A stretch of DNA of 64,000 nucleotides from Cladochytrium replicatum (taxonomy: Eukaryota > Chytridiomycota > Chytridiomycetes > Cladochytriales > Cladochytriaceae): contig JAHLKD010000111.1 of the NCBI GenBank assembly GCA_025526935.1, forward strand, positions 107,772 to 171,771. The letters run 5' to 3'. Positions 23,591 through 50,800 of the stretch are shown in pieces. The notes beneath the pieces are model-generated. The model saw only the letters and a list, made by a program, of their open reading frames with translations, did no database searches and was not told the origin of the DNA. Each line of letters starts with the position of its first letter. Position 1 is the stretch's first letter. The translations under genes and the position numbers were made by a program.

Positions 23591-24032
23591 TTCCTTCTTG
23601 TTTCTTCGGTACTTTGTGATGTTCGCGCTGCAAAGAAATGTCAATACCACATTCTTGATATATGAGCAATCTTTGTTCAACCTTTTGGCTATCCAAGAGA
23701 AGCACCCAGGATTTTCCGTGCGTTTTTGTTTCCTACGGTTCAGGCCGATCTAAATCCGTAAGCGAATGATTGAGCGATGATGCTCCGCCAAAGTGCATTC
23801 TTGTTCAATTACCGAAGAGTATTCAACCATGCCTTCGTTGGGAGGTGCAGCTTTCAGATCACTCTGTCCGATAGGACTTGGGATGTGTCAGTTTTGGTTT
23901 GGCCAGACCAGGAGGGTAGGATCTCCAGTGTTTGCGATCTCCAAAGTCTTCCAATCACAACGGGGTGCAACACTTGAGTACGCGCGCTGCGCCACGGCAA
24001 CATATATGGTAAACAAAAGATATATATGGACA
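23591..24032. other. intergenic, MED13 3' side and kinase promoter
   Basis: No gene supported. Both flanking genes read on the minus strand. The open frame entering from 23680 may be 5' UTR or an N-terminal extension of the kinase. Confidence 0.4.
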
Positions 24033-27000
24033 TTAAAAAGCCAGATTCTCCAATGATGGCACCGCACCAAGTGCAAGTCGTGCCCGTTCTACAGTTGAAA
24101 ACATGAATGGAAAAGCGCGAAACTCGTGCTGAAACGAAACTGTGGGGCCAAGTGGGGGAGTGGAAACTGCCCTAATTGGGTATGGTGCGCTCCATGAGCC
24201 TGACCATGTACCATTTGATCTAGCCGCGAAAGGCGTCCTGAATTCCTCGACTGATCGTAGCGGCGTGCGAGCCAAGTATCTAAGTTGATAATACTGCTTG
24301 ATCACATCCCGCAAGACAGATGCGTTGTGTGGTTCGACAGAGTGAGATGTGGGCAGGCTATTTGATGAACCCATGATCGGGGAATTAGAAAACAAGCCGC
24401 TCAACGGGGTACCGACAGAATCATGTTGTCGCATAACAGGGGTACTGGTTCCAGTTGAGGGAGTTCCAACAGAATCACCTCCTTTAGTAGGAGGCAGAGG
24501 ATGCCAGGTTGGGAATTTTGAAGATGAATTGTCCGTCGATGGATTGTAGTGGTGCCAGTATAAGCAGACTTCGTACGCTACTGATCCAACACTTGGCACA
24601 AACGATGGCCCCGTCTCGTGATCCTTTCCATCTGGGGATTGCACATTTTGTCGAGGGGTGTCCACAATCCAGCCATTACACAATGGAATAACAACCTGAT
24701 TGTCATCGTCCTCAAATGTCGACATCTGCGATGATAATATGCCAGATATAACCTCTGGTATTCGATGATTTGTCAACACGAATGAGTGTGAGGTAACATA
24801 ATCTTCAATGATTGAGTCTTTGCCCGTAGAGGAAGTTTTCGCTCCAAATGTTGGTCGGGAGGTCGGTGGGTCGTCAGCAGATGTGTCAGGTTTGGTTGAA
24901 CTTGGCGGTTGATACTTAGGCTCATATATTTGCATCGACGACGATCGACGAAATGAGGTGATCGAAACGGAATTGATTTTCTTGCTAGGTGTAATAACTG
25001 CGTCGAACGAACCAGATTGATCTTGCTCAGTAATGTTTTCACAAAGCTGTGCTTGAAGCTCTATCATAGGGCTGAGTACAGTGTCCCAATCTTCCGAACG
25101 ATAAATTAATGTAAGATAATACGTCATCTATGCACCTCTTACCTCGAAGCTCTGACCGCGCAATTGAACCAAGTTTGCCAAGTACAATCCTCCAGAACAA
25201 GCTGGTGCTGCTGGTGATTTCAAGCGTCTTCTGCCAAATTGTTCGAAAAGCAACCAAACGCCCACCTTGGTCCGTCAATTCAGGCTCATCCATAGTACGC
25301 TTCGCAGTTCTTAAACGGGGAGCTTCATATTGCTGAGGATGATTGAACCTCTGTTGAACTTCGAAAGACGCTGTTTCCACAAGCTCCCCAGCTTGATCGC
25401 ACCAACAGACACTGCACCATCGCCCAAAGAGCACGTAAGCAACATGGAGAACTCGTTCACTTTCGAAAAGCTTCAGAGAGCTGGCATTGATGTCTCGATT
25501 CAAGCTAAATCTGGGGAGTCCGGCCGGGATGTATGCACTCGAGTTAGCAAGAATGTAAGGCGGCAAAAACAGCTTCCGGTTTCGGAGCCCAGGGGTTGTC
25601 GATTGAAGAGCCTTGGGAACAGATTGGCTGGAACTTGTATCCGCCTTTTGTAGGAGCTTTCGACAACGGGTGTATAAGCCAAGACAGAGTGTCTGAACAC
25701 CGTGCGTCTGAAACCCTTCAAAAGCTTCACTGTGCAAGGCGGCTTCAATTGGAACGAGCTGCAATATGACGCGCGATAGTGCTTCGTCGGGAGTGGGCAT
25801 GGTCACACTTGGGTCCAGTCGGTGAGCTTGGGTTTGTATCGCATCAATAACCTTTTCGATCATCCTGGCAAAGCAAAAGCTGAGGTCAAGTGCGGAACGT
25901 GGTCGATTCGGAAAGGGGTCGAAAAGATAAACCGCGAGAAACTGAGAATGATGCGTCGAAAGCCAGCGTGCGATATCAGCGGCTAAAGGGTTGAATAAGT
26001 ACGACTTTTGACTTCTTCTTCCGAGAAGAATTACCAAGATTCTCTAACGATATCAAATAGCTCCTTAGTCTCAGCCCATCATCCGTCTCCGCTCCGCCAG
26101 ATATTGCTTCAGAAAGCAGTTAAATAAGTCGTCGTGGTACATGAAACAATGCTATTAACATACGAGGTGCAAGCGGAACCGGAACCAGCCCTGATCCTCC
26201 TTGCGGTGTGCGTACTCGCGCAGTCCCATGGGTGAAGCCGTGTGCTGGCCTGTGCTCACCGAAATTACAGAATTCGTAAACATGTCCGACAATGCTCATC
26301 CATCGTGAAATAAGTGCATGTAGATCACCAACGCTATCTCGCCGTCCTTGACTCGACCAGCTGACATCGTCGGCAGGACTAGGCGCGGGCGGAATGACTT
26401 GCGGAAACAGTGCTAACCATCTGACGTTCTTTGAACCACCAAAAGGCTCCAATCTTAGCTTGTCCCAGAAGCGCAGTATGGCTGGATTTGCACGCAGCCA
26501 GTTCCTGTTATAGCCAACCAAGATCTCGGGAGGGTTCAATGGTTCAAAGATCGGCTGGTCGGTTCCACGCCGCTTCTTGCGAAGCTGGAACTTTGCGCTG
26601 TACTTCGTGTTTACATTCCGGACGGCATCTGGACAGAAAATTAATCTGAGAAGGGCGATCATTGACATACGTTCACCTAAAATTTACCTTCCAGCTCAAA
26701 GTACTGCTGTATTGTCAAGGGCCCGCGGAGGTTGCTGGAAACATTCGACGCTGCTTCTGAACCGTCTTTGACTCCTGCACCCTTTTCAACCCCAAATTGT
26801 TCAGAAAGAACCTTCTGAATTAGGTTAATGGCACTCAAGCTAGAATCAGGATGGAGGGGTGGTCCGTAGTGTGTCCAAGTTGAATCGTTGTATGACGCCA
26901 AGGTTGAATTCATTGGAAATGATGCTGAGTGAAGATCAACTAGCTTCAACGACGACGCTTGGATTATGTTGCTCTGATCCAACTCAATACCACCACTTCC

Positions 27001-32575: not shown

Positions 32576-33124
32576 TCGCTTCAACCTCCAATTTTAGAGA
32601 GAATTAATTTTCTTCGGTTGGTGGGTAGAAACGGGAGACCCACCGATGCAGTCGCACCTCAGGGAAGTGCATTTGGTAGGTGGATCACCTTCGTTTTGTG
32701 ATTATGTATTGATCAAAACTCTGCTAGCATCTTAAAAGCCAAACTCGATCTTGCACCATCGACTCGCCTTACACCATTAGATAGCATCGTCGCATCAAAT
32801 TTCTCAAGCCCGCGACAGATATTTCGATGAACTATCCAAAATGATCCTCAACTGTGTTATTTGCAATTGTTGACAGCAAGTCGACAGTCAGATATCCAGA
32901 AATGATCATCGAAGCGAACTCCTCGGTCCCGGTCTGATCACGGGTATATATCTGGCAATATCAAAATTACCTCAACCAACTCACCTGTGCAATATTGATG
33001 GACCTACAGTAGCGGCATACCGGACGACTCTCTCGCCTTTCTCATTCCAGGACACCTCTCCAATATTTTATTCACCTCGGGTAAATTTTGAGGTTCCCTA
33101 TCTTGGCCCCACATATCGGCCGCA
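32576..33124. other. intergenic
   Basis: About 550 bp without a supported gene. The TAF9-like gene promoter would lie at its left end; the right end may hold more of the decayed family copy that becomes recognisable at 33125. Confidence 0.35.
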
Positions 33125-33490
33125 GTGTCGCCAACAGGAGACTTTGTGATGGGAGATCGTGCTGGAATTATTTGGGATCGTTCTTGGAGATCCGTTTTCC
33201 ACCGATTCATCGTGTTCCCGTCCCGCATTGATAAATCGAGCTACTTGGCTTACGTTTCTAAGCGGTACAACCTGGAGTTCTTGCGGGACATCTGTTTCGA
33301 TGCATCCGGAAACTGGGTTATTGAGGGGTTCGAAGATAATTTCATTTTCTCATATAGATGGGGATTCCGATGCAAGCGTGAAGCTGGGATCTGGAGCAAA
33401 TGTCGAGACGATAGCCAGCGCAGATTTATCCGACCTTTTCATCCTGGCGGCGAACAGTTCCGATGTATCCTCAAAGTTTCGCATTAATAT
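33125..33490 (+). pseudogene. Relic of the PPxY membrane protein family (C-terminal part)
   Basis: In one frame, GDFVMGDRAGI and then LEFLRDICFDASGNWVIEGF match GIIVMGDKAAI and LNEVVLHSSGKWTLEGFED of the gene at 44908. After a frameshift near 33340 the next frame reads ANVETIASADLSDLFILAA, matching YAVESIASSGSSSVFVVGV of the same gene. About 120 residues of the outer domain's end survive; the tail, transmembrane helix and most of the outer domain are gone. It is closer to the 44908 gene than to the 33748 and 37431 genes, so the divergent branch once had a copy at this end of the array. Confidence 0.65.
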
Positions 33491-33747
33491 TTAACTGCAA
33501 CACTTCAATCCCGTTTTGTCACTTCTGCGGCATTGCCGCAGTAGTTCCATGGAAGGCTAGCCAAGAGCTGTAACGCCAACACTCTGGCTTTTTTATTGAC
33601 ACAGACTATCTGTCAGAGGAAGATCGACTCACGTTCGGTCGAAAATCAAGAGCATGTGCATAAAATGCATTCCGGATACTCTACGAAAATTTAGTACTGC
33701 TGCGCTGTCGAAGATAAATTTTTATGATCACCCACTCTTTCACACAC

Positions 33748-35458
33748 ATGGGGACGCAACAACATGAATCTATCGAGCTATCAGCATCATCTTCCGCAAC
33801 TCGAGCTGAGGAGCTACCACCAGAATACGATGCCGATTCATCAAGTTCCACCCAGCTGTCCATCCCAACATCAAATTCCGATGGCTCGAACAACGCGACA
33901 CCTGAGAATCCCGATGATTTTGTAGGCGGATCTCCTGTCCACGCCTACCCACCTCCGGTTGCAGACGCCATTCCGCCAGATGCGCCCCCACCACCAGGCG
34001 AACTCCTCCCGTCCTACACATACGTGACAGCCCCGCCGCCAAAGTATTCCGAGAAGAACATTTTCAAGCTCTTGCGATCGCGAAAGTTGCAATTGCTCAT
34101 CCTGGGTGAGTCCAAAGCGTAATCAATGAGTAGCGCACAACTAAATCTTTCATGTTAAAACCAGCGCTGTCCTTGCTTGGAATCGCCATCACAATCGCAA
34201 TTGTAGTTCTAACGCAGCTGTCAAAGCAATCAGGACCTTCTCTAACGGTCCTTATTGTGCAAGAGGTGTTCGCGACAAGGTTCCTTGGGGCTGCGATCGG
34301 AGCTGGCAAGTGGAGACATATTGCTGGGAACGAGTACTTTGGGGTCGCAGTAATCGAGCGAGTGTCTTCGTCCTCGAACGGGACAAGCGCCATCGTAGTG
34401 GTACGGAAGAACCACACGCAGTGAGTACACAGGTTTGTGTTGATGAGATAATGTGTTGCTCAGTCTTTTTGTGGGATTTCAGGATTTTCACATTGGAGAG
34501 CGGGGTGACTGTCTCGTACATGGCTCCCTATTCTCCGGACACCTTCTATGCACTCAGTACGACAAACGACACGATGAACTTGGTGCAGTTTGGAATCGGC
34601 CGCGATCATACAGCCAGAGTGGCACCTCTTTCGGTGTTTAATCTGACCAACATCACTTCCCCTGCGTTTCAGCATCCAGTTCTGGAAGCCTCAATGTACC
34701 TGAGCTACAGTATGAACAACTCAAGAATCTTCGTGGCACTGGCGGACAGTAACTCGACCACTTGGCTCTATCGTATTCGATTACCCAGCTACATCGAGGG
34801 GAACTCGACCATACTTGGCTCTACCAGAGGGCATTATCGGTTCGCTGAGTCGACGGGTTTCGCAGATCCGGAGTCGAACGATGTACTTTCGAGTATCCTA
34901 ATGCTTCCTTCCGCACCCGTACCAACGATCTACGACGCCTATGCGATGCTACAGCCAAAGAGTTTGTCGATAATTCTACCGGTCAAGCCCTCAAATCCGA
35001 CATTCCACTTGTTCCTTGGCGCACCCTATCGTGGTTCGTTGAGCCCAGACGGGACAGCAGGGATGGTGATGGGCGACAAGGCCCTTGTAGCTGCGAATTC
35101 TGCGGAGCTCACTAGGAACAGCAGTGTCAGAACTGACTACGGACACTTCTTTGACATTTATCCAAGGGACTGGGGCAAGTCCCCCAACAACAACGTTGGG
35201 GGAAACCTCACCGAGGTATTGGTGCACGTATTGGGAGAGTATACTATTCGCGGAGTGGATCGGGCGGTGGTTTTACGTGGTACAAGAAGCACAGTTTACT
35301 CTACCTCGTCCTCAACTGCAGCGTCATATGGATATGGTGACATCGGGCTCGAGGTTGAATCGCTGGCAAATGCTGGGCCGAATGCTTTCTATGCAATGGG
35401 TGTCAGGGGCGAAGATGTGTTGATCAAAAAGATTAACGTAAGCAAGAGTTCCGCGTAG
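33748..35458 (+). CDS. PPx Y-tailed type II membrane protein, family copy A
   Basis: Exons 33748-34105, 34165-34420, 34483-35458; 529 residues. ATG 33748 (MGTQQHESIEL) was chosen because paralogues start the same way. Residues 1-118 form a Ser/Pro-rich cytosolic tail with PPxY motifs in ELPPEYD and APPPKYSE, plus LPSYTYV. A basic KLLRSRKLQ precedes one transmembrane helix (about 120-139, ALSLLGIAITIAIVVL). The outer part (about 390 residues) has around eight N-glycosylation sequons and family blocks YMAPYSPDTFYAL, FNLTNITS, YRFAES, SSILMLPSAP, FLGAPYRGS, AGMVMGDKALVAANSAELT, VLGEYTIRGVDR and ESLANAGPNAFYAMGV. The positive-inside rule and sequons give an N-in, C-out topology. I do not recognise the outer domain. 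PPxY motifs bind WW domains of Rsp5/NEDD4 ligases; adaptor or cargo function is inference. Confidence 0.82.
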
Positions 35459-35820
35459 TGATCTATTCGAATATTTTCCTCCTTTGTTATTCAACTGAGA
35501 TATATAACATGCCTTTGGTAAAACCTGAACTGTCTTGCCTTGGGTTGGGCCTCTGAGTGTGAGGATGGACGATTCGAAAGGCTGAATGTAAGCTTAGACT
35601 AGGCAGTGACAGTTGTGGTTAAAAAGCCATGTTCAACGGTTGCTGATCGTTGTTGCACACAAAAAATGTATTCCCGATTTTTAATTCTTTTAAAGGCCGA
35701 TCGAATAAATAAAGAGAGCGCTGGTACTAGCGCCGAACGAAATGAGGACGAAAACAGATAGGATGAGACAAAATTTAATTGGTGAAAAAATTAAATCACT
35801 CCACCCGGATTGAATGAAAT
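35459..35820. other. intergenic within the family array
   Basis: No gene seen. It should hold the 3' UTR of copy A and the old promoter of the relic that begins at 35821. Confidence 0.35.
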
Positions 35821-37080
35821 GATGGCAACACAACCACACGAATCTATCGAGCTTACCAACGTCCCACCACCATCATCGACGGAGGCCCTTGTGAACACCT
35901 TCCCCACCTGATGCTGCCACCTGACAATGCGATTCGTCAAGTTCCACCCAAACACCAACATCTACCAATCTAAGATGGCTCGAACAATGAGGATAATTCT
36001 GCGAATTTTGATGCTCCTGCGAGTGAAAATGCTGTGCACGCCTACCCGCCCCGGATGTAGACGCAGTCCCTACAGCTGCACTTCAACCACCAGGCGAACT
36101 CCTCCCTTCCTACACATTCGTGACAGCCCCGCCACCAAAGTACGCCAAAAGAAACTTATTTAAGCTCCTGCGATCGAAGCAGTTACGAATGACAGATTCT
36201 GGGTAAGTCAAGTTGACGTCCAAGCAATCTTCTTATGACCGACCTTCTTTTTGTGAAATCATCAGCGCTCTTGTTGCTTGGAGTTGCCATCACTATCGCA
36301 ATCGTATTTCTGACGCAGAATTCGAAGCAATCTGGATCCTCTTCCCCCATCCTAAATGTCCAAGAGCTGTCCTCGGTGCTTCGATCGGAGCTGGGAAAGT
36401 GGAGGCATATTGCAGGTGGTGAAAACTTTAGAGTTACGGGGTTCTCGAGCGAGTGTCGGCTTTGGACGGGTCGAATCCCATCCCAGCGCTTTGAAAGAAT
36501 GAGACACAGCGAGGACCACCAGTTGTGTTGAGAACAGAATGTGATTCTAAATTTTCTGTTGGGCAATTCCAGGTTTTTATTTTGGAGGGCGGAATGGCGG
36601 TTTCCTACATGGCTCCCTATTCTGAGGAAACCTTCTATGCGCTCACTACGACAAACGACACTGTGAACTTGGCACAGTTTGGCATCGGGCCTGATCGAGG
36701 TGCTAGAGCGACACCTCTTTCGGTGTTCGATCTGACCAATATCACCACCTCCTTCTCATTCATGCATCCGGTATTCGAATCTTCGATATACTTGAGCTAC
36801 AATCTTAACACCACGCGGACGTCACAGAAGTTCTGGTGCATGCATCGGGAGAGCATACAATTCGGGGAGTCGATCGTGCGTCTAATTTGGAAGGAACTAG
36901 AACCACAGTTTGCTTTAATCTGACTACGCCTCCCTCGGCGTCTGGGCATGGATACTGGGTTTGAGGTGAATCTCTGGGAAGCGCGGGGCCCAACGCTTTC
37001 TATGCCATTGGTGTTAGGTAAGAGATGGGAATGTGATCATCAAAAGTTCGGCGTTCGGAAGAGTTCTAACAGTTATCTTT
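35821..37080 (+). pseudogene. Relic of the PPxY membrane protein family, copy B
   Basis: Starts as ATQPHESIELTNVPPP, close to copy A, then hits a stop near 35910. Later fragments in other frames are recognisable in order: TAPPPKYAKRN (about 36125), the transmembrane helix LLLLGVAITIAIVFL (36265-36320), GKWRHIAGGE, FILEGGMAVSYMAPYSEETF (36570) to PVFESSIYLSYNLNTT. After that an internal deletion of about 180 codons joins directly to a frame-shifted EVLVHASGEHTIRGVDRA (36825), followed by GPNAFYAIGV near 36985. Stops, frameshifts and the deletion mean no product of normal form. The old intron positions are still visible. Confidence 0.8.
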
Positions 37081-37430
37081 TCTTCTAACGTCTATGCATT
37101 TTTGCTACATTTTTTTTGGATATTTGTGTTTTATTAGCACCTTTTTTGGGGAACCCATAATAGTATTGAGGTAGTCAAAATGCTAACTATTCATTGCGTT
37201 CCTCATGGTTTTTTATTGTGTTTTTGGTCTTGCCCAACCTCTCTTTAATGTATATAAATAGCCGTCTCTTTGTGAGTGCCTTGAAGTGAAACGTAAGTTC
37301 AGTTGATTGCGGTCGGATGAACAGACTCAGAAACCATTTGACCCGACTGAAAATTTGTGTCGTCAATTATAAAAGTGATGATGAAGTTAAAATTTATTGC
37401 AACCTTAAAATTATCTCCGCACAACACAAT
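37081..37430. other. intergenic within the family array
   Basis: AT-rich, with a TATA-like TATATAAATA near 37251-37260, about 170 bp before the start of copy C; probably its promoter. Confidence 0.4.
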
Positions 37431-39193
37431 ATGCCATCAGCAACCAAACAACAACATGAATCCATGGAGCTCTCCAATGTTTCGCCATCCTCCGCATCGC
37501 AGCCAATAGCTGCAGTCGATCCAAAAACTTCCGTCCCGGCTGTGGACGAGCTGCCTCCTGGATACCTCGTAGATGTACCAAACTCCACTCAAACCACATC
37601 CACACCAAGTTCCAATGGTTCACGAAGAAACGAAACCACTGCGAGCGCAGGTGATTCTCAGGATGCAACTGCAGCTCACGTCTACACCCCTCCTCCGGCC
37701 CTGGACACAGTTCCCCCCGATGCACTCCCACCATCAGGGGAACTTCTCCCGTCTTACACGTACGTCACGGCCCCACCTCCAAAGTACTCCGAGAAGAATA
37801 TTTTCAAGCTATTAAGATCGAGGGAGCTTCGAATGACGATCGTTGGTAAGTCAAACCGGTAAACTCCAAAGTCCAAAACACTGACCGTTATTCAGCACTG
37901 TTCTTGCTCGGAGTGGCTATTGCCGTTGCAATTGTTACCCTATTAAATCAGTCAAGGCAATACGGGCCCAGTCCCACTATTCTGAATGTGCGAGATGTGT
38001 TTTCGATTTCTTTCCCTGGGGCTTCGATCGGGGCGAACAAATGGCGGCATATGGCTGGCAGCGAGTTCTTTGGAATCGCGGTGATCGAAAAAGTGCCGAC
38101 GATTAACGGAGCTAATGCGCTCGTGGCCATTCGGAACAACAACACTCGGTGAGATCCATTGATTATGGTTCTTTTTTCTCTGGGGTTTGTAACTTTACTG
38201 AACTTTGAATCGGCTAGGTTGTTCGGAGTTCCTACTGGAACGACTATTTCGTACATGGCACCGTATTCAGCGGATACGTTTTTCGCTCTCGCAACGACCA
38301 CCAATGGTACAGTAAACCTCGTACAGTATAACATTTCATCCGAGCAAGGAACTCCCATTTCCGTGTTCAATCTGACTAACATCACGTCCTCCGCGTTCGT
38401 CCACCCTGTTGTCGAAGCCTCGATGTACCTGAGCAACAACGCCCTGAACAATTCGTATGTCTTTGTGGCGATGGGGGATAGCAACTCCACGACGTGGTTG
38501 TATCGTATTCGCGTGCCGGCCTACATCGTCGAACGAAACGGGACAATAGGCGCCTCTGCCAGAGGCACTTACCGTTTCGCTGAGACCGTCGGCTTCCCGG
38601 ACTCAGAATCGAACGAGCTCGTTTCGAGTATCCTCATGCTCCCCTCCGCACCAGCGCCGACTATTTTCGACGCCTACGCGATGCTTCAGCCACAAAACTT
38701 ATCCCTGCTCCTGCCGGTCAACCGCGACAGTTCATCATATGTCTTGTTTCTCGGTGCACCTTTCCGCGGTTCTTTGAGCACAGCGGGAACTGCGGGAATG
38801 GTGATGGGCGACAAGGCCCTTGTAGCTGCGAATTCTGCAGAGCTCACTAGAAACTTTAGTGTCGGATCTATCCCTGGATTCAGGTACGGGCAGGTGTTTA
38901 ACATTTATCCGCGGGATTGGGGACAGTCCTACAACAGCTACATCGGGGGAAACCTCACCGAAGTTCTGGTGCATATGTCGGGAGAGTATACGATTCGCGG
39001 AGTTGATCGTACGGTGGACTTACGGGGTACAGCCAATAATTCGACTTCGTCAGCAACGGCGATTGGGAGTGCTGAGATTGGGTTTGAGGTGGAGTCCCTG
39101 GCCAATGCGGGCCAGGATGCGTTCTATGCAATTGGTGTCAACCGGGCAGATGTGGTGATCAAAAAGTTTAAAGTAAGCAAGAGTTCCTCGTAG
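37431..39193 (+). CDS. PPx Y-tailed type II membrane protein, family copy C
   Basis: Exons 37431-37845, 37896-38148, 38218-39193; 547 residues. ATG 37431 (MPSATKQQHESMEL) aligns with copies A and B; an ATG at 37317 in frame adds unrelated sequence. Exon 3 is exactly as long as in copy A (976 nt), and the intron phases are identical. The tail has PPxY in ELPPGYL and APPPKYSE and again LPSYTYV; the helix is at about 139-158 (ALFLLGVAIAVAIVTL). The outer domain shares all blocks with copy A (AGMVMGDKALVAANSAELT is identical) and has many N-x-S/T sites. Conservation of the PPxY motifs amid a divergent tail suggests selection on them. Function unknown. Confidence 0.83.
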
Positions 39194-39589
39194 CTTTTGT
39201 TGCGAGATACAAATATTTTGTATCAACTTTTTGCTTTAAATTCATTTCATTGTTATTTGGCTTGTGACCCCTTACGAATTACTGTCTACTCAGATCACAT
39301 CAACTTCCTTAAGAATGCACAAATCCACCAGTAGCCAAAAATTGTTCTCGCACGATTTCACCAGGTGCAAGTTTGCATGCAACCTGACTTGTATCTTTGT
39401 GGTTTCTATGAATGGAGTTTCCCTCTATTTCTTTTTCTTATTTGTGTGTTCTATTTGAAGGAGTTTTGGCTGAACAACTCTTTATTGTGGTCATTTTCCC
39501 ATTCAACACACTTGTCCGTAAAATCGAGTTCTGCTTTACAATCGGATCCCCTTCGTTCTACATTGGTATGGAGACTTCGAAGAACGTAG
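39194..39589. other. intergenic, AT-rich
   Basis: No gene supported. It separates copy C from the copia fragment; a boundary of the inserted element may lie here, but no LTR or target duplication was recognised. Confidence 0.35.
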
Positions 39590-40370
39590 GGAGGCAAAAT
39601 TGTTTGCCTGTAGTAGGATCAATATCCCACAGTGTTATGAGCCCATAAGCAAGCTCGCGACGAATATCAAGCGGATATTGAAGTGCTTCACTCGCCCGCG
39701 CTCAGTGGGGATTGTGGATATGCGCGATGCATTGCTTGATTATATTCGAGAAACTCCGTTATTGCCGGAACTTCGCGTCGAGTCTTGCAAGATCTGGCGA
39801 ATCCACAGCGCTTCTTGTGCCACTGTACAGAAATCTTGATATTCGGCTTTCAGGCTCGAAAGTGCGACCGTGGGTTGGAGCTTTGACTTCCAGCTAACAA
39901 GTCCGTTAGATATGAACAACGCATTTTCCTGCGGTCGATCAACGCTTCTAAATTGCCACGTTTCTAAATCACCTCGCCGGTTCGCGTCGAGTATCCCTTG
40001 ATTCCTTCGCCGAGACCGTCGTAGTGAAGACCGTAATTTACCGTGCCAGCCAAGGAGCGCAGAATGCGTTTGACCGTCCGTATGTCTTCCTTGCAGTGGT
40101 CGCTCAAATGCCGACTAACTTCCTTAACCGCGTGGCCTGAATCGGGTCTTGTTCCTAACATCGCGTGCATGTAACAGCCGATTTCTCGGTATGGGAACTT
40201 TCCTATCTTCGTCGTCGAGTGGAGTTCGCATGTGCCTTCCATCGTCCTCCATCGGTGTTACGACCGGCGTTGCATTCATGCTGAATCGCTCCACGATATC
40301 TTTGATGTATTTTCGTTACGTCAGAGTGTATCCCTTGCTGGGAGACAACCTCTATTCCCAATAACTGTGA
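39590..40370 (-). mobile_element. Decayed Ty1/copia retrotransposon fragment (RT end and RNase H)
   Basis: Minus-strand fragments in several frames follow copia pol order. First comes YIKDIVERFSMNATPVVTPM (about 40330-40270). Then YREIGCYMHAMLGTRPDSGH and AVKEVSRHL ... VKRILRSLAGTVNYGLHYDG match the conserved R.A.GSLMYL..TRPDI...V...SRF and AVKR.LRYL.GT..YGL. Last is an RNase H block, SNGLVSWKSKLQPTVALSS, KAEYQDFCTVAQEALWIRQIL, then VKHFNIRLIFV. Several stops and frame changes show it is dead. No LTRs were recognised; gag, protease, integrase and most of the RT are absent. It sits between family copy C and relic D and probably truncated the latter. Confidence 0.8.
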
Positions 40371-40387
40371 CACCTTCCCCAGGTCGT

Positions 40388-40620
40388 TCGTTTTAAAATC
40401 TCACCGAAGTATTGGTGCATTTCACGCGCGAGTATATGATCCGTGGATTGGATCGCAGGCTGGACTTGGATGGTACAACTAACACAGCTGACAGCAATTG
40501 GACTGCGAAATCGGCGTATAGGTGTGCTGAGATCAGATTCGTGGTGGAGTACCTAGCTAATGTGGGATCAAATGAGTTATGTGCGACGGAAGTCAATGGA
40601 TCAGGGTGGTGATTCAAAGT
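40388..40620 (+). pseudogene. Relic of the PPxY membrane protein family, copy D (last 75 codons)
   Basis: Starting abruptly at NLTEVLVHFTREYMIRGLDR, it matches GGNLTEVLVHVLGEYTIRGVDR of copy A and continues through FVVEYLANVGSNELCATEV to a stop. Everything upstream in the gene is missing. The first recognisable codon lies about 20 bp from the edge of the copia fragment, so insertion or a later deletion through that element is the likely cause. Confidence 0.75.
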
Positions 40621-40762
40621 TTACCGTGTGGGAGTGTTCCTCATGGGTTTTCTGATTTTCAATATTTTGGATTTCTCCTCTTCACATGGTTTTGGTTGGG
40701 TGGCGACCCCAGGAAGTGAATGGTTGGCTCAGATCTAAATATATTTGCAAATTTACAAAATC

Positions 40763-41495
40763 CTACATTTGAGGATCAGTTTGTCGCTGTTGAGCTATCG
40801 AGGCGAGGAGATCTGGGGGATCTAGCGGTGCAACGTATGATGTGCAATGCGGGCATCGAACTGCTTTTGTAGAAATGTCCCTAAAAACGGAAACAATAAG
40901 GATGATAACCCAACATAAAAGTACTGTCCGAACATCAAGCAGGCTGGACAGTGCCTGATATCGTCGATGGCCAGTTTCCAATTGAAAAAAGCACGAAAGG
41001 CTAATTGAGTGAGAAAATGATGAGCTGTGATCCACCCGCCCCTGTTTATATCAAACCTCTGAAGAACCAGTAGACTGAGTAACCAACGACCAAGAAATTG
41101 ACCAGCTGGTGAATAAATTTGCCGTGATTCACGATGACGGCCCCGCTAGCCAGGGCTTCTTCCGCAGTTTTTGGCTTGTAACCCTTCTTCATGTTTGGAC
41201 CGGGTCTGATCACGATGAAACCGTACTGGCGGACTTTGTATGCTCTGAGGAGCTCAGCGATCGGTGGAGCGACGACATCGTTGACGAACGAGACGATAGC
41301 GGCTTTGAATGAATTTGCTACGATTGTGGCAACGCCTGTTTCGAGGATGCGCGCTTGGACGACAAAGCTTTTGAACTGTCTCCAGTGCAGACTCGCGGGT
41401 GCGACTGCCGCGCGTGCGTGAGCTGACAGTGATGGATGCCGTCTTAGTCTCCTAGCAGCAGCAGCGGCTGCCAACGGCACCGGGTTCGAGTCCAT
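40763..41495 (-). CDS. Eukaryotic MscL-type mechanosensitive channel
   Basis: The main exon is 41495-41046, from MDSNPVPLAAAAAARR. It shows the MscL fold: QFKSFVVQARILETGVATIV (helix 1), NSFKAAIVSFVNDVVAPPI (matching the bacterial F..IV.SLVNDVIMPPIG), the loop, then GAVIVNHGKFIHQLVNFLVV (helix 2, matching INYG.FI...I.F.I). MscL forms a homopentamer that opens under membrane tension. A C-terminal exon is likely at about 40880-40763, reading ISTKAVRCPHCTSYVAPL to a stop; fungal MscL proteins commonly end with such a CPxC segment. I could not fix the splice between them, because the phases do not agree. The Ala/Arg-rich N-terminus could be a mitochondrial or other targeting signal. Confidence 0.83.
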
Positions 41496-41664
41496 CCGAA
41501 AATAGTGAAATATCAACAACGTCAACAATGAATCCGTGAACCAGGACAACGCAACAGTCACGTGTGAGATTTGAACATAAAACAAATTTAAATCGTTGTT
41601 AAATAACTAATATTAACAATAATAGTAATAAATCGGTGTAAATCTGTGTATGTATCCGTGATCC

Positions 41665-42124
41665 ATGACTGAGCAACCCGAACCCGTCAGACTGTCTAAT
41701 GGCACACAACCAGCATCAACGCTGGTGGTGGTGGCCTCCGCTGTTCCACCAGATTACTTGGCCAATTTGAGCAACGAGAATATTGCAAACCTGGATGCTC
41801 CTTTGCACCCCTACCCGCCTCCTGCGCATCCTGTTCCGCCCAGCGATTGGCTCCCAACCTACGCATACCTTACGAGACAGCCGCCAAAGTACCGCCAGAC
41901 GAACATATGCAGGCAATTGCTGTCAAAACAATTAATATTCTTGATCCTTGGTATGGTCCCCAAGAAAATCCTTGCTGTTGTTTTGCTTATCATTTCCGGT
42001 TCTATCAGCGCTAGTCTTGCTCGTGGTCGCGATCCCCATTGCAGCCATAGTCCTCACGCGGCCAAGACAATCAGGCTCTTCTCAATTAAGCAATCACACA
42101 ACTTGGTGTCAAGTGCACTCGTGA
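41665..42124 (+). CDS. Short PPxY tail plus transmembrane helix, family copy E
   Basis: Exons 41665-41950 and 42009-42124; 133 residues. The tail has PPxY motifs in AVPPDYLA and QPPKYRQ and the LPTYAYL block that parallels LPSYTYV of copies A and C. The first intron is in the same place and phase. The helix is ALVLLVVAIPIAAIVLT; after it only about 20 residues remain before a stop, so the whole outer domain is absent. It could be a truncated relic or a genuine tail-only form; the splice signals and both PPxY motifs are intact. It is divergently arranged with the MscL gene (169 bp apart). Confidence 0.6.
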
Positions 42125-42286
42125 ACACACAACACTTCGGTACCAAACAGCTTCTATGGTTCATCTCTGCCCATAATTACTCCTGCAATCTGTGCTGAGA
42201 TTGAATATGATTAAAATATGACTACGTTCTTTTTTCTTTTCAAATACCAACTCCCTGTTGCTCACGTGTGAAATTCTCTTCTCAAA

Positions 42287-43960
42287 ATGCTAGCTTTCAG
42301 ATCTGCTAAATTCCTGCTCGCAGCGGCGGTGGTTCCGCGCTTCGCAGTCGTTGCGGCGTCAGTCGCTGCTGTGCGCTCAACTGCCCTGAACGCTCAGCTT
42401 CTCGCCGAAAGATCGTTCGCTACCGAAGCTGCGAAATCAAAACGTCAAACCTCGCGACCTCAGAGGTCCCCTTCCCAGAAGCTCTCCACGACTCCCGCTG
42501 AGCCCCAAACGCCTCTGGTCGCATTCAGAAAGCACGTCGACTCAAACCGTGCCCGCTCAGCTTACCGCGAATACGAATCCTTGAAGGCATCCAACGAGCT
42601 ATCTTCCCTCGACACCGACCACTTCAACTACATCATCAAAGCCATCATGGTCGGCCAGCTCTCGCGCCGCTCTCGCGTCGTTCGCCTCAACAGCTCGAAG
42701 CGTATCTACGAAGATCTCGTCGGAGCGAGAAAGACCCCGAACGTGGAGACTCTCGCGTTGATGTCTCGCGCCTACAGTGCGCAAGGTGACATTGCGTCGA
42801 TGGAGTCGTTCCTGGAGAGCGTGAAAGGTTGCTATGGCGTAGAAGTTTCCGGCCAGATCCTCGAGGAGCGCTTGATAGAAGCCCACGCTTCCAACGGCAA
42901 CCTCGAAGCTGCCATGGAACACTTTGAAAAGTTCAGCGCGCTTCCGGACGTCAAACCCGCGGACGTCAACCGTCTCGCCATCCTCCTTCTGAATCGTGTC
43001 GCGGTCCGCGGCGACACCGAGTTGTTCGAAAAGGCAAAGACTCTGTTGCTGGCAAAGGGTCTCAAAATCGAAAAGGACCTGTACCTCCCGCAATTGTCGC
43101 TTCTCCGCACCCAGGGCAATCCGAGCGGCACCTACGAGCTCGTGAAGGAGATGTGCGAGAAGAAAGAAGGCCTCTCGATCGCCATCGCCCGTGTGGTCAT
43201 CGACACCTTCGCGGACGCAAAGGACTGGACGACGTGCCGCAAAGCCATCGAACTCATAATTCGCACAAAGATGGTCCCGCGCAGCATTTTCTACACGACC
43301 GATTTCATGATCGAGACTGCAAAGAAGGACATCGAGATGAGCTCTGGAGCCTACACTAACATGTACAAGTTCTCCATAAACGAGCGCATGGCGGTGCACC
43401 GCGAGGGCGGCCCGCTTCTTGCCGAGATGATTGGTCCGTTGGTCGGCGAGGGGAGCGACAAGAGCAAGCTCGACTTTGCGCGGTTCTTTGACCCGCTCGA
43501 GACTAAGGTGCGACACAACGCGTACATCACGCTGGCGACGGGGTACCTGATGAAAGGTGATTTTGACTCCGCGGCCGAGGTCGAGACCATCGCGATCGAA
43601 GACAAGTGCGAGCACTTCCAATCGGTCTCATACCTCCGCAGCAAGATCGTCCCGATCTTTGATACCGAGTCTGTCGGGAAGGAACAAGCATTGATGGGAT
43701 ACGATGTGTTTGTGGCGTTGGCTGGAAAAGCGGGGGATTCGAAGCCGTTCGAGTCGAGCACTGGGTTGAGGCTGTTGCTGAACGGGTTGGCAAAGCTGCC
43801 CGGCACGGAGGCCGAGCAGGTGTTGAGCAAGGTCGCGGAGTGGGTTGAGAAGAACCCTGGGGTCGAGGTGAAGGAGCAGAATTACAAGGCACTTGCGGAG
43901 AAGTTTGGAGAGGAGCACGCCGCTTTGGTTGAACTCAAGAAGCACATTCCCTCCCAATAA
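42287..43960 (+). CDS. Mitochondrial helical-repeat (PPR/TPR-like) protein
   Basis: One exon, 557 residues. The N-terminus MLAFRSAKFLLAAAVVPRFA is basic and amphipathic, a typical mitochondrial presequence, with a likely cleavage region near RSFATEA. The rest is alpha-helical. Degenerate 35-residue helical repeats can be seen, for example TPNVETLALMSRAYSAQGDI and SGQILEERLIEAHASNGNLE, consistent with PPR-type repeats of organellar RNA-binding proteins. I cannot name the orthologue. The codon usage is strongly GC3-biased toward its middle, unlike the neighbouring family genes, suggesting high expression. AATAAA overlaps the stop region (43958). It is convergent with BLOC1S2. Confidence 0.6.
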   Translation: MLAFRSAKFLLAAAVVPRFAVVAASVAAVRSTALNAQLLAERSFATEAAKSKRQTSRPQRSPSQKLSTTPAEPQTPLVAFRKHVDSNRARSAYREYESLKASNELSSLDTDHFNYIIKAIMVGQLSRRSRVVRLNSSKRIYEDLVGARKTPNVETLALMSRAYSAQGDIASMESFLESVKGCYGVEVSGQILEERLIEAHASNGNLEAAMEHFEKFSALPDVKPADVNRLAILLLNRVAVRGDTELFEKAKTLLLAKGLKIEKDLYLPQLSLLRTQGNPSGTYELVKEMCEKKEGLSIAIARVVIDTFADAKDWTTCRKAIELIIRTKMVPRSIFYTTDFMIETAKKDIEMSSGAYTNMYKFSINERMAVHREGGPLLAEMIGPLVGEGSDKSKLDFARFFDPLETKVRHNAYITLATGYLMKGDFDSAAEVETIAIEDKCEHFQSVSYLRSKIVPIFDTESVGKEQALMGYDVFVALAGKAGDSKPFESSTGLRLLLNGLAKLPGTEAEQVLSKVAEWVEKNPGVEVKEQNYKALAEKFGEEHAALVELKKHIPSQ

Positions 43961-44102
43961 ATATATTTATCTTTATTTATCCAAGGCATTCGAATGTACG
44001 GTAGAGTCGGAGGGACATGGTGTGAGTTAAGATGGTTTCTTTTTCCGCCTGCTGAGGTCGCTCTCTGCACGTCACATAAAAAACATGAAGTCATAACTTG
44101 TA

Positions 44103-44784
44103 CTACATATATTTTCTTGAGGTCCAGTTACCCAGTCGTTTAGTGTAAGCGTCGAGCTCGATTGCGATCGTTTCGATCTCCGACACCTGCCTCTCAATCT
44201 CATCAATCTGCTTCACGTACGGCTCCATTTCGTCATCTGAAAATCAAGCAGCCATAAATTTGAAGTGTCCGTCGTCGCGGCTTGCCGTTCACATACATAA
44301 CGAACGTAGTTGTGAGGAGAACCCAACGAGATTCTGTGCCGTCAGCTCATACTCTGCATATCGGTCCCGTATCTGAACGTTCATGGCTTCCATCAATGCA
44401 TACTCCTGTCCCGCAGCTGGATACCATCCACCACCAGTCGATTTAGAATTAGTCTGAAACTTCCCCTCAATAACACCTTACAAGTAATCTCAGCTTTCAC
44501 GTCATCGGATACCTACGCTTTGCAAGTGTCAAATGCCAAGAAACCGCGAGCACCACATAAGGGGCAGAAAACGTTTATACCTTTCCCAGCAGCTCGACAA
44601 CGAGATCCTGCGCGACTTTACCGAGCCGTTTGGATTGCTGCTCGGCGGGGGTTGATTCCGAAACCGAGGAGGGTGGAGATGGACGCGGCGGTGTCTCTGT
44701 TAGCGATGCAGCGGCATTGCTGGTCTTTTTCTGTGACGACCGCCCGGTCAGCCTGCTCGGCGACTCTCTGGTTGAGGTTGACAT
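44103..44784 (-). CDS. BLOC1S2: BLOC-1 subunit 2 (BLOS2)
   Basis: Four exons: 44784-44581, 44512-44482, 44416-44297, 44236-44103; 162 residues (human 142). BLOC-1 is an octameric coiled-coil complex of endosome and lysosome-related traffic; BLOS2 is shared with BORC in animals. After a Ser/Thr-rich N-terminus, KVSDDVKAEIT-SAGQEYALMEAMN spans the second intron and matches the GELTATSEDYKLLENMN region of human BLOS2. RYAEYELTAQNL and then the heptad-rich YDEMEPYVKQIDEIERQV and ELDAYTKRLG match the conserved C-terminal coiled coil. The tiny 31-nt exon is fixed by frame and similarity. Divergent from the gene at 44908 (123 bp). Confidence 0.85.
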
Positions 44785-44907
44785 TTAGTGGATTTTTGAA
44801 CTTTAACTTTGTACCACGTGACTGGCTGCACCGCACACAAAAAATTTCAACCGACGAAAAATAAAATTTGACACTCCGGCCACCCCCAAAACTTCATCAC
44901 AGCACTG

Positions 44908-46704
44908 ATGGCAGACGAGAAGCGAGCCATCGCTGGATCTCAGAACCCGTTCGAGAGCCCCCTGGATAGACCCGGATCATCGCAGCAAATTCCGCCATCA
45001 CGCCCATCATCGTCCACTGACCAACCACAAAACCCCTTCGCGAGCCCCGAGGACGTCCTTGCTTCACCAGCACCCGCGATCGAAGCTCCACCTGCCTACA
45101 CCCTCGGACGAAGCAGCGCCCTTTCAACTTTAAGCTCGTCCCAGAATGCCGTTGTGGTGTCGGACAGTATCTTGATGGCGCCGCCCCCGATAGCTGAGCA
45201 GAGTCACACTCCATTCAATAGCCCTCCGAGGTACACGATTGCGATCGGGGAGCGGTTCCAGTTGCCGCAGTTTGTGGATAAGAACATGAAACAAGCGCGA
45301 AGACCGCGAAAGCTGCTCATCATGGCTGTTCTCTGTGGTATGTTCTTCCGAAAGACCACCCTATTTGATACAGCCTTTATTCAACATCTGTAAATACCCC
45401 CAGCTATACCCGTCATCATATTCTCTGTTATAGTCGCAGCAGTGATGATGCGTCCAGGCTCAAGTCCTAATGCAGCCGGCAATGGGAACGGAAACGGCAC
45501 CAATGTTCCAACAGGATTGAATCTCAAACAACTAAATTCTTACACGTTTGCCGGTGCTAAACTCCCTACGGACACAGGGCGCCATGTAACCGCAAGTGAC
45601 AGCTTTGCGGTCGCTACTTTGGACAGTGTTGCTTCTTTGAACGGCGCGAGTGCGTTAGGTGGAGTCAGTTTCACTGGGGACAAAGTCTGGTAAATTTGTC
45701 TTGATCATTCCATGATTTATGACCAAACTGATCAGAAAATTAGGCTTCAAGAGATTGAGCCCGGAGTGAAGATCACACATCTGACACATTACGTCAACAA
45801 TACCTTTATCGCAGTCAACACAACGTCCGCGGGCGTCTGCATCGTTCTCTTGAATCTGGACGGTTCTAGTGGCAAACTAATCGCCTTCAAATCTCTGAAT
45901 ATCACAAGGACCTTCCCACAGGATTTCCGTCGTCCGGTGATAAACACGTCCATCTACCTCACGAAAAAATATGCGGAGCACACTTTATACGTCGCCATGG
46001 CAGACAGCGGATCGACCACGTACATCAAGCGCATGGACGTTCCTGGCCTCGAGATAGACGCCGAGTCGATCATCAAACCAAACAACCTGGGCTACTACCG
46101 CTTCGCCGAGACCGTTGGAAACGCAGACATGGCGTCCATCAACCTCAACTCTGCAATTCTAATGCTTCCCTCCGTCGCGCCGTCGATCGCCGAGAGATCG
46201 ATTGCGTATTTCATCCCGAATGCATTGGACGTGGTTTTCCCGGCCCTCACCCCGCCCTCGCCGTTCCGGTTCCTCGGCGCGCCGTTCCGCGCATCGAGTG
46301 CGCCGAATCTGGCTGGGATCATTGTGATGGGAGATAAAGCCGCGATCGCGGCGGATGCAACTTCGGCTTCATCGTCGCCGCACGAGTATATGATCTACCC
46401 GGCGGCGATCAACGACACGTTTTCGTGGTACTACGGGCAACAAAGCTACAGAAATGAAAAACTGAACGAGGTCGTGCTGCATTCGTCTGGGAAGTGGACA
46501 CTGGAGGGTTTTGAGGACCATGTTTTGTTGAAGGAGTTTGTAGATAAGACGACGGCGGCGGGAAGCGCAAGCAGGCCGGTGTACAGATTCGCGACGGATT
46601 ACGCGGTTGAGTCGATCGCGAGCTCGGGAAGCTCGAGCGTTTTTGTGGTGGGAGTGAAAGGTTCGAGCGTTGTTGTTTCAATCTTGAACGTGGAGAGCCC
46701 GTGA
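44908..46704 (+). CDS. PPx Y-tailed type II membrane protein, divergent family copy H
   Basis: Exons 44908-45337, 45404-45689, 45744-46704; 558 residues. The cytosolic tail has two NPF motifs (SQNPFESP, PQNPFASP), which in yeast and animals bind EH domains of endocytic adaptors. It also has PPxY in EAPPAYTL and SPPRYTI. A basic QARRPRKLL precedes the helix LIMAVLCAIPVIIFSVIVAA. Outer blocks shared with copies A and C: GYYRFAETVG, ILMLPSVAPS, FLGAPFR, GIIVMGDKAAIAAD, LNEVVLHSSGKWTLEGFED and YAVESIAS. Same intron count and phases as copies A and C. The NPF plus PPxY combination points to endocytic or ubiquitin-sorting contacts (inference); the outer domain is unidentified. Confidence 0.82.
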
Positions 46705-46895: not shown

Positions 46896-47850
46896 CTACA
46901 GCTCGTCATGACCGTGCTCTTCCGCCTCCACGGCGACATACTCCCCGCCATCTTCATCCCCTGAACCATACGACGTCTCCACGTCCGCAGGCGGCACGCC
47001 GAACTTCACCCTATCATGCACGATGTCGTCTGCTTTGCTACGAACGTAATCCCACAAACTCGTGATGTCGTGCTCGCTCTGGTACTCCTCAACGAGCTTA
47101 CCCTTGTGGTAGAACAGAATGGTTGGGTATCCGTCTGAGCCCTGTTCAGCACAAAAGTTGTGGATTTCGGTACAGTCCATCTTTGCGATTCTGAGACGGT
47201 GGGTCGCGAGAACATTGTACTTCTTGGCCAGATTTTGGATCTGCAGCCATTTAGGCGTCAACCTGCGAAAAAGAAAATAAGCACAATCAGATGTAGCAGT
47301 AATGGAAATAATACCTCTTGCAGAACCCGCAAAACTTGTCCCCAAAGAACACAATCCAGCTAATCCCGCTCTCTGGATCCAGTACCTCCTTCTCAAAGAC
47401 CTCGTCGTCCACAAACTCGATGGAAAGGTCCGCTTGCTCCGCACGGTCGTCGATTTCGTCTAGCGTCAACCGACGCTTATTGAGCACTTTCGGCTGCGTT
47501 AGCGCTGGCGGGGGTGGTGGTGGGTGAGCGTCCAAGATCGTCGAAGCTGGGGTTGCCGAGCTCGAGATCCCCGGCGTCGGGGATTGAGTGACCGCACTGG
47601 TTGGGGTTTCTGCCGCTGGAGCATCATCAACCGCTGTGGTCACAACAGGTGCGGTTATTGCGGTTGCGGCCATGTTTGCACTCTGCTTTGGCAGTAAGGT
47701 CTCGACCTCTCTCAACGAGGTCTGCTTGACCCTCGCAGCCTTTTTCGTGACAGCCTTGCGCTTCTTTGAAGCAGCAGCGAGTGCCGGATCAGCGCATGCG
47801 AGGATTACCAGGACCAGAAAAACGACGAGGAAGACGCGACGAGCGAGCAT
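46896..47850 (-). CDS. ER thioredoxin-like (PDI-family) protein with HDEL
   Basis: Exons 47850-47315 and 47262-46896; 300 residues. Signal peptide MLARRVFLVVFLVLVILACADPALA, then a Lys-rich and Thr/Pro/Ala-rich linker of about 120 residues. One thioredoxin fold follows: ISWIVFFGDKFCGFCKRLTP with a CGFC redox centre (the second exon supplies LTPKW), AKMDCTEIHNFC and DGYPTILFYHKG, which contains the cis-Pro. The protein ends in HGHDEL, the fungal ER retention signal. Predicted soluble ER oxidoreductase that forms or exchanges disulfides. Classical PDI has two such domains; the single domain and long linker make this a short PDI-like member. It is divergent from the kinase gene, with only 38 bp between start codons. 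Confidence 0.9.
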
Positions 47851-47888
47851 TGGGAAATCGCGTGCCACGAACAGGAAATTTGAACGAG

Positions 47889-50800
47889 ATGACTGGAGAG
47901 ACAAAAGAGGAGAGGAAGGGCAAGGGACAGCCGGTCGAACCTTGGGAACTGAACAGGAGCGAGGTGGAGGCGGACGAGAATGACCCGTCAACGCTGCTGG
48001 GCGAAGGCTCGTTCGGCCAAGTCAGAGCTGGTGTATGTGTTCTATCACAAATAGCTGCCATTGCAACTGATGGGAATTATTGCTAGAGATGGCAGGGACA
48101 CAGTGTAGCTATTAAACGGCTACTGCCCAAGCACCATGGCAAGGAAATGATCGATGCATTCGTCAACGAGATCCGTGTGTGGCATCCGCTGCGACATCCG
48201 AATGTGTTGCTGCTCTACGGAGCATGTGTATACAATACCAAGGATCCCATCATGGTGATGGAACTCATGGACACGAATTTGCTTACCGTACGATCGTTGC
48301 CTAATGATTCACAGTTCCCTCCTTAACACTAAAAATTGCAGAGACTTCAAAAGGGTCCAGCGTTGCCATGCAAAGACGTTCTCCGCACCATCCACGAGAT
48401 CGCACTCGGAATGAACTTCCTCCACACCCGATGGAAGCCCGTCCTCCACGGCGACCTCAAAACAGCCAATATCCTTCTCAACTCCAAAGGCACCGTCAAA
48501 ATCTCCGACTTTGGATTCGCACGCCTCAGAGCCGCTTCCTCCGCCCTATCTTCCGGAATTGGCCTCTCATCGTCATCAGCCCCGCTCGCGCGCGCATCTT
48601 CCCGGGATCCGAACGCCATCACGACGAGCGGGGACCCATCCCAGAATCCAAGTCCAACAACGCGGCCCGTACCCACCCCGCAAAACGCGCAGGCGAACAA
48701 AGGAGGGGGAACCTATTTTTGGATGTCGCCCGAGAGACTTAAAGGCGGGCTTTTGAAACCGGAAGTCGACATCTACGCGTTTGCGATGACTTGCTACGAG
48801 ATCATATCTGGTGGGAGGATCCCTTTCGCCGACAGCGTGTTTGATCTTGCGCAGTTAGTGGATTACGTGGTGTACCAGTCACGACGGCCGGCTCGACCTC
48901 CTCCGCGTGAGGGAGACGATACCCCGCCGCATATTGCGCGACTATTGTGGACGATGGTGGAACGGTGTTGGGACCAAACGCCGGCGAATCGCCCCCCGTT
49001 TGTGGATATCATTTGGTTCGTCGAGTGCTTGCAATCGAACACCGACCCATTCACGCATCCGAATTTACAAAACACGCATTTCATTCATGTACAGGCTACC
49101 CAAACACCGCAACAACAGACAGCGCAGCCACCTGGGCAATCCGAGTCCGTGGCACGGCAGGCGCGCGCGGTCCTGGACGCGCTGATTCGGACAAACTCGC
49201 AGGCGGCCGACGCTTGGATCTCGTGTTTCGGAGCGGAGACCTGGGAGGTGGACTTCACGTCGTTCTTTGCAGCGATGGATCTCGAATTGTTGCCCGAGGG
49301 TGTGACGGTGGACAGAAGGGTGCTGAGAGCCCACATTGATCCTGAGGAGCGCATGCCTTGCATGACACTTGGATTGTTTCGCATTGTGACGCAAAAGGCT
49401 CGAACCCTCAAAGACGCCTTCCAACGATTCTCAAAGGTAAGATTTGCTGGAGCAATATTTGTCCGTTGAAACCTGCTAAGGCGTTACTTTCGCATTTTAG
49501 CCCCTCACGCCGTCCCCTAAACCATCTTCGCCACCGGGACGTACCAATGCACCACCAGCGCTCAGCACGTCATCTCGACTCGCGCTGGACCAACTTAGCA
49601 GAGAAAACCGCGCCGCCTATGATTTCTGGGTATCAAATTTCGTAGATGGGCAGGAACCGACGTGGCATGAGTTTCTGCTTGCACTTTCGCAGGAGTTTGA
49701 TTCGATGAATGCTGTTGGCGGGTCACTCGATCGGGACGCGGTTCGACGGTACATGGATCCCGATGGTGCTGTGGATCGGGTGTCGAGCACTTTGTTCCGC
49801 ATCGTGACCCGAAAGTCTCGGGATTTATCTGGCGCTTTCCGGAGATTCATAGCTGGGGTGCGTTTCGATTGTTTCGAATCATGGTAGAAGTTGATTAATA
49901 GGTTTTGTTTCAAGGGTGAAGGTGTGCCAGGGTCACAACCGGCAACGCCGGCATTGCCAGCTTCGAATAGGCGACCGGGTGAAGAATCTGGGTTCGTCGA
50001 CGACGAGTTTCGGTCGAGCGCATTGAACAGCATGATGGTCGATAGCTTGAATCTTGGCTCCGGTGCTGCGTCGACATCTGCCTCTGGCGCCATCCGGAAC
50101 AATGATAGAGAAAAGGACATACTGATCGGGATTTCGTGTGGAGGGCTGTTCTCAGCTTATCGCGACATCATCAGATTAATGCGAGAACAGGTGGGCACGC
50201 TGATTGAATAGTTTTGATAACCTACATCGCTGAGTATGCCATAGAACCTCTCCATTGCTCGAGTCGGTGAATACCTCCGAAAATTGGTGGCGACGTTGAT
50301 CTCGTCGGAGGTCCCCCGTTTCGAGACGTTCTTGCAACGGGCAGTTCCGGGCTCCATCGCTGCGGAAGCCTTGGACGCACTCAACTCGTCCATGATACCT
50401 TTCGAGCTCCATTGGCAAGACCCTGACATCCATGTTGCGTCGGCGAGGATCCTGGTCTCGCATTTGAGGGCGAATGAACGTGCGCACGCCGCTCGTATAT
50501 CTGAGCTTCTTGAGGTAAGAAAATGGAAAGCGGAGCAAAGAAACGAGGTTCACAGGAATCTGCTTTAGCACGAACTCAGCTCCGTGCTTTCTACAGCTTT
50601 GACTGCACGAGCGTCGACAACATCCCCGCTTCCCCCGCCAGGTTCATCGCTGACCGCCGGCGGCACGGTATCCGTTCTATCTTCTGTTGGTTCACCAAGC
50701 GCTGTCACATCCACCACCATCACCACGACCGCGGAACAGGTTATCCGCGCATATTCCCTAATTCAGCACATGCACTCCGAGTTTGCGATCATTTGGGAAA

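Follow-up and report, generated by a model that had tools for sequence, protein, structure and literature searches.

A predicted family of membrane-anchored beta-propeller proteins with PY-motif tails, possible ubiquitin-ligase adaptors, in Cladochytrium replicatum

The gene cluster and its exon plan

The window, a stretch of 64,000 nucleotides on contig C111 of the Cladochytrium replicatum genome, contains at 32.7-46.7 kb three full genes (A, C and E), one copy consisting of tail plus helix (D), and three relics, all on the plus strand. Gene A (33748..35458), established from GT-AG splice models and alignment, encodes 529 aa in exons 33748-34105, 34165-34420 and 34483-35458; its tail carries PPEY, LPSYTYV and PPKY, followed by a transmembrane (TM) stretch at residues 116-134 and a predicted outer propeller. 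Gene C (37431..39193; exons 37431-37845, 37896-38148 and 38218-39193), based on splice models and a predicted structure of exon 3, encodes 547 aa, with PPGY, LPSYTYV and PPKY in the tail, a TM at residues 137-155, and again a predicted outer propeller. The divergent gene E (44908..46704; exons 44908-45337, 45404-45689 and 45744-46704) encodes 558 aa, with PPAY, PPRY and two NPF motifs in the tail, a TM at residues 136-154, and an outer propeller predicted from the exon 3 model. Gene D (41665..42124) reads as 133 aa if spliced like the family (exons 41665-41950 and 42009-42124), its tail carrying PPDY, LPTYAYL and PPKY; its first intron is that of the family, and the single TM stretch (residues 93-111) is followed by 22 residues and no outer domain.

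One relic (32739..33466; tblastn 32797-33385) is an outer domain with in-frame stops, whose nearest relatives are L018 and L016 on contigs C2 and C94. Relic B (35819..37024) comprises tail, exon 2 and outer-domain pieces, is interrupted by stops and has lost part of its outer domain, and a third relic (40397..40630) is an outer-domain C-terminal piece only. Shortly before the latter lies a minus-strand open frame (39740-40114) resembling the end of a Copia-type RNase H; an insertion may have broken the family copy left as this relic. Comparison of 12 family proteins with the whole window by tblastn recovered relics at three sites, with no hit starting outside 32-47 kb. Together with the splice models, this bears out the first-pass annotation, which had counted three full genes, one tail-only gene and three relics in 13.6 kb.

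Other genes are found alongside. A plus-strand gene (42278-43957) encodes a 560 aa TPR/PPR-like protein, assigned from weak Pfam matches, and has a duplicate on contig C94 with 82.8% nucleotide identity. Pieces of a thioredoxin/PDI-like gene, in which a CGFC motif and a start resembling a signal were recognised by eye, lie on the minus strand at 46896-48021, and a tyrosine-kinase-like protein kinase (PF07714, E 2.9e-26) with a C-terminal extension is encoded on the plus strand at 48333-49469.

Genes A, C and E each have three exons with GT-AG junctions, intron 1 being in phase 1 and intron 2 in phase 2, so the shared intron phases proposed earlier for the full genes are confirmed. All 12 scripted models have three exons: the tail comes from exon 1, the membrane helix together with the beginning of the outer domain from exon 2, and the remainder from exon 3 (about 315-330 aa). 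With phase unconstrained, a phase-2 junction was found for intron 2 in all 15 loci, E additionally allowing phase 0. The equivalent search for intron 1 returned only phase 1 for eight members (A, C, E, L009, L012, L015, L017a and L017b), phases 0 and 2 only in L010, which has a disrupted tail, and no junction in L011, L013, L014, L016, L018 and L020, with the same result when these six loci were searched again. Models for L011, L013, L014 and L018 were obtained once phases 1 and 2 were required and the ends loosened. For L020, which has no scripted splice model, the tail reading was made by eye, hence tail statistics are given on 12 members and presence counts on 13; C94b (L010), C94c (L016) and L021, whose tails are disrupted, do not enter the tail statistics. 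Two alignments, A1 and A2, cover 14 of the 15 open outer domains, leaving out L017b, which is nearly identical to L017a. The blocks YRFAE, ILMLPS, GAP-[YF]-R and VMGDK, picked out from the window's genes in the first pass, are present in A1.

Distribution and history of the family

Searches of the whole 50.5 Mb genome (198 contigs) gave 26 protein matches with A as query, 21 with E, 9 with L020 and 20 with L018. Thirteen members appear intact (A, C, E, L009, L011, L012, L013, L014, L015, L017a, L017b, L018 and L020), with L020 counted as such on a partly by-eye reading. Damaged copies include L010, with an open outer domain and a disrupted tail; L016, also with a disrupted tail; L021, with a stop within the outer domain as well as a disrupted tail; and several fragments. 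A copy on contig C11 retains an open PPDY/LPTY/PPKY tail, with no TM exon seen and the outer domain in pieces only. The proposal of a multigene family with adjacent copies is supported by these searches and by the cluster in the window, and the history of the family looks like birth-and-death evolution.

In the tree, A, C and C94a are grouped (94/97, below star level), and L015 joins L017a and L017b (98/99); five of the 12 inner branches are starred, and the branch leading to L020 is very long. Contig C94 holds an inverted counterpart (C94:114-129 kb; L009, L016 and L023) of window segment 22260-49439, with nucleotide identities of 82.8% (42401-43960), 81.8% (47880-49439) and 71.2% (22260-24113), and the relic at 32739-33466 matches C94c at 70.3%. 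Gene E survives on C94 as a remnant of about 250 bases, and the place beside the shared neighbour gene is taken by the full-length C94a on C94 and by the truncated D in the window; different members therefore appear to have been lost from each copy of the segment. On the window side, A, B and C look like tandem copies. Beyond this genome, phage records gave no relative of the family, contigs from viral and from prokaryote sources yielded 2 and 29 pattern stretches with none confirmed, and among the papers listed by literature searches we recognised none as describing such a family.

Members L015 and L017, on contigs C10 and C23, share the same minus-strand neighbour gene upstream, in which a PPPY precedes an apparent PH-like start, as judged by eye.

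Membrane layout, outer domain and tail

A hydrophobic stretch with mean hydropathy of 2.3-3.2 provides a membrane anchor in all 12 models. In each, the 15 residues before it contain 4-6 K/R, compared with 1-4 in the 15 residues after it, and sequons number 6-16 outside and 0-4 in the tail. The type II layout suggested in the first pass is supported on both counts, and a single-pass family is predicted, with a tail that would be cytosolic and a propeller that would be luminal or extracellular. A and E have additional, weaker hydrophobic windows (>1.6) within the outer domain.

The outer domain went unrecognised in the first pass, but structure prediction gives it a recognisable fold. Exon 3 of C and of E was modelled as an all-beta propeller with repeated four-strand blades (pLDDT 84.5 and pTM 0.84 for E), and comparison by Foldseek and VIA-align matched these models to propeller structures. 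Both models span exon 3; the first blade would come from exon 2, and a complete domain would be expected to have seven blades. The outer domain is thus assigned, to predicted-fold level, as a beta-propeller, giving a predicted fold to a family with no Pfam match here. Sequence comparisons were largely silent: Pfam searches with 14 outer domains, at E up to 10, returned only two single-member hits (E 0.17 and 0.18); a PDB sequence search with C, at E up to 1, gave no match; and a PDB search with the family profile gave three hits (E 0.31-0.58), the best being SMU1 at E 0.31. A known enzyme or transporter as the outer domain was rejected, as none was found by the Pfam or PDB sequence searches. 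Structural look-alikes among viral proteins appeared generic, as judged by their names.

All four tails in the window (A, C, D and E) carry two PPxY motifs, as first reported, and in A, C and D an LPxY, absent from that earlier list, lies six residues before the last PPxY in addition. Across the genome the claim that every tailed copy keeps PPxY fails, the motif being common and not universal: among the 13 intact members PPxY is kept by seven and [PL]PxY by nine (7/12 and 9/12 of the scripted tails, respectively), and L015, L017a, L017b and L020 have no [PL]PxY at all. The motif is therefore not required in every member, and its loss or primary lack belongs to the family. In L015, L017a and L017b the tail is 55-56 aa long and contains no PY motif.

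Where present, the motifs are well beyond chance. In the 12 tails, PPxY occurs 11 times against 0.66 expected (maximum 5 in 5,000 shuffles), [PL]PxY 18 times against 0.93 (never more than 5 in 5,000 shuffles), and [PL]PxYxx[VLIA] nine times against 0.23 expected from shuffles; the PY motifs reported for the window can accordingly be regarded as real. A paired module, LP[ST]YxxV followed after 3-5 residues by [PL]PxY, is found in five of the 12 tails (A, C, L009, L011 and L013), with an expectation of 0.00 and a maximum of 1 in 2,000 shuffles. Its LPxY lies six residues ahead of the second [PL]PxY (eight in L013), and the second motif ends 14-17 residues ahead of the membrane stretch in all five members; D shares the module, as LPTYAYL followed by PPKY. 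Each of the 12 tails contains 2-5 lysines. NPF, presumably an EH/Sla1 endocytic signal, occurs twice in E and once in L011 (NPFRD), three observed against 0.12 expected, with no excess of YxxΦ (7 against 5.4) or dileucine (1 against 0.76) in the same tails.

Both partners carry [PL]PxY in four pairs with only 24-33% tail identity (A/L011, E/L018, L013/L014 and L011/L012). The tails had been considered otherwise diverged, which is not clearly so relative to the outer domains in A, C and C94a (57-68% compared with 60-69% identity). In the three pairs of these genes the tails give dN/dS values of 0.23-0.42 and the outer domains values of 0.18-0.24, with several dS values near or above 1, suggesting that all three are under purifying selection. 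The near-identical L017a and L017b give an outer-domain dN/dS of 1.34 from very few changes. For the tail of D the value is 0.31 in comparison with A and 0.35 with C94a, and saturated with C. Despite these values and its 133 aa reading, D was not taken to demonstrate that a functional tail-only protein exists; the C11 copy, with its open tail in a broken gene, indicates that open tails can outlast a gene.

Proposed ligase docking and competing readings

Candidate loci for the NEDD4/Rsp5-type ligase that the PY motifs had implied are present in the genome. WW and HECT matches co-occur at three loci (C32:148339-150308, C32:154753-156738 and C55:182558-184539; L026 and L027), and nine of the 37 WW matches genome-wide fall inside these, the other 28 lying elsewhere. 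The C55 locus has the apparent order C2-like, three WW, HECT; both C32 loci can be aligned to it, at 78-80% in their longest pieces. Two of the three loci lie near each other; yeast has a single Rsp5. Bsd2-family (PF10176) matches fall at two separate loci, one having an open frame with PPSY immediately upstream.

The arrangement of PY motif in the predicted cytosolic tail (9/13) and membrane anchor (12/12) resembles that of NEDD4/Rsp5 transmembrane adaptors. The yeast Tre1 and Tre2 proteins are likewise type II with an N-terminal tail, but are transferrin-receptor-like, in contrast to the predicted propeller without Pfam match described here; no transferrin-receptor-like domain was matched by Pfam in the 14 outer domains. 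Bsd2 and NDFIP (PF10176) are PY-motif membrane adaptors with several TM, whereas the present family has one, and Ear1 and Ssh4 contain a SPRY domain; Pfam matched neither PF10176, SPRY nor WD40 in the tails of A, C and E or in the 14 outer domains. WD40/YVTN-like propellers such as Sec12 (4h5i), also close comparisons, differ in this respect; the propeller of Sec12 is cytosolic, and the one here is predicted to lie outside. PPXY and LPXY are the motifs read by the WW domains of Rsp5, whose membrane adaptors include Tre1/2, Bsd2, Ear1 and Ssh4 (PMC2810449); Tre1/2, PPxY-bearing adaptors for Smf1, act with Bsd2 to trigger manganese-dependent Smf1 ubiquitylation (PMC8050425). The first-pass comparison with Bsd2, Ear1 and Ssh4 holds in that these are PY membrane adaptors, but is less apt than that with Tre1/Tre2. 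Motifs of the LPxY and/or PPxY type that interact with Nedd4 or Rsp5 are also carried by Commissureless (Comm), PRRG4 and Rcr1, all short proteins with a single TM; Comm and PRRG4 have an extended LPSYxxA[LV] and further PY motifs (PMC5578492). Gene D is much like the Comm/Rcr proteins in shape (133 aa, PPDY, LPTY, PPKY, one helix); these lack a propeller, and the likeness is one of motifs and shape. The two-residue gap required for the strongest synergy of the KIBRA and MAGI WW tandems (PMC6744271) differs from the gap of 6-8 found here, and that model was rejected.

Computation gives the layout, the exon structure, the predicted fold, the excess of motifs and the ligase loci. Building on these, an adaptor function is the leading reading, at a probability of roughly 0.45, in which cellular topology, binding to WW domains, ubiquitination and cargo are inferred. 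The cytosolic PY tail would be bound by the WW domains of a NEDD4/Rsp5-type ligase, and the outer propeller would bind a ligand or partner membrane protein, whose state could control ubiquitination of the bound cargo and of the family protein itself; ubiquitinated proteins would then be sorted to the vacuole, in a manner close to that suggested for Tre1/Tre2 in yeast. The earlier suggestion of a ubiquitin-adaptor family is plausible in light of the candidate ligase genes and PY statistics, the adaptor role itself going a step beyond them. Docking is weakened by the absence of a PY motif in 4/13 intact members, by the 28/37 WW matches away from HECT loci, and by the poor prediction of partners from PY motifs alone: about half of Nedd4 interactors lack one, and motif screening is reported to be insufficient (PMC8509885). 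Also against it are the ligase-independent roles of PY-motif membrane proteins, reported for Comm at the midline and, in chitin deposition, for Rcr1 (PMC5578492), the gap of 6-8 residues between the paired motifs, and the outer-domain dN/dS of the L017 pair. No function can be deduced from a propeller fold alone, which also counts against the adaptor reading.

It is possible, if doubtful, that each family protein is its own cargo, a surface receptor or adhesin whose built-in PY site sets its endocytosis and serves no others. The tail lysines and the NPF excess in E and L011 would suit this, as would a sequon-rich outer propeller evolving by birth and death as in surface families; the membrane-proximal paired PY module is perhaps more than self-turnover requires, and D retains tail and helix without a receptor domain. 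Sequence alone cannot separate self-cargo from adaptor. That the tails bind a non-ligase WW protein (scaffold, signalling or cytoskeletal), the family being receptors with a signalling or anchoring tail, is distinctly improbable: most WW matches do lie outside the three HECT-linked loci, but Rsp5 recognises just this mix of PPxY and LPxY, and the tails resemble Nedd4-binding Comm and PRRG4. Far less credible still is a decaying array of little function, with motifs persisting through recent common descent only. Many relics, the disrupted tails of C94b and C94c, and open tails outlasting the outer domain in D and the C11 copy fit such decay; dN/dS of 0.18-0.42 in the A/C/C94a pairs, and [PL]PxY shared by partners 24-33% identical in tail, speak against it.

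The adaptor reading would place an outer propeller and a probable ligase-docking tail in one polypeptide, such that outside or luminal signals could decide which membrane proteins are removed, and would amount to a many-member system for sensing and remodelling membranes in C. replicatum. We consider it unlikely that the family is a lineage-expanded repertoire of propeller sensors, mostly PY-wired to NEDD4-type ligases and coupling outside or luminal ligands to selective membrane-protein removal, with the PY-less members and D as modulators or decoys. With paired-, single- and no-motif members and several ligase loci in one genome, the idea is directly testable.

Other matches in the genome include IFT57, above cut-off, with three archaeal controls matching below it; Radial_spoke_3 had zero matches in genome and controls alike. 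Chitin-synthase-type sequences were matched in the genome and also in four bacterial controls; these matches and that to IFT57 point tentatively to a fungus with a flagellum. Identity is 84.7% between two chitin-synthase-like loci, on C94 and C111, and about 80% among the ligase loci of C32 and C55; such further gene pairs hint at genome-wide duplication or a hybrid origin.
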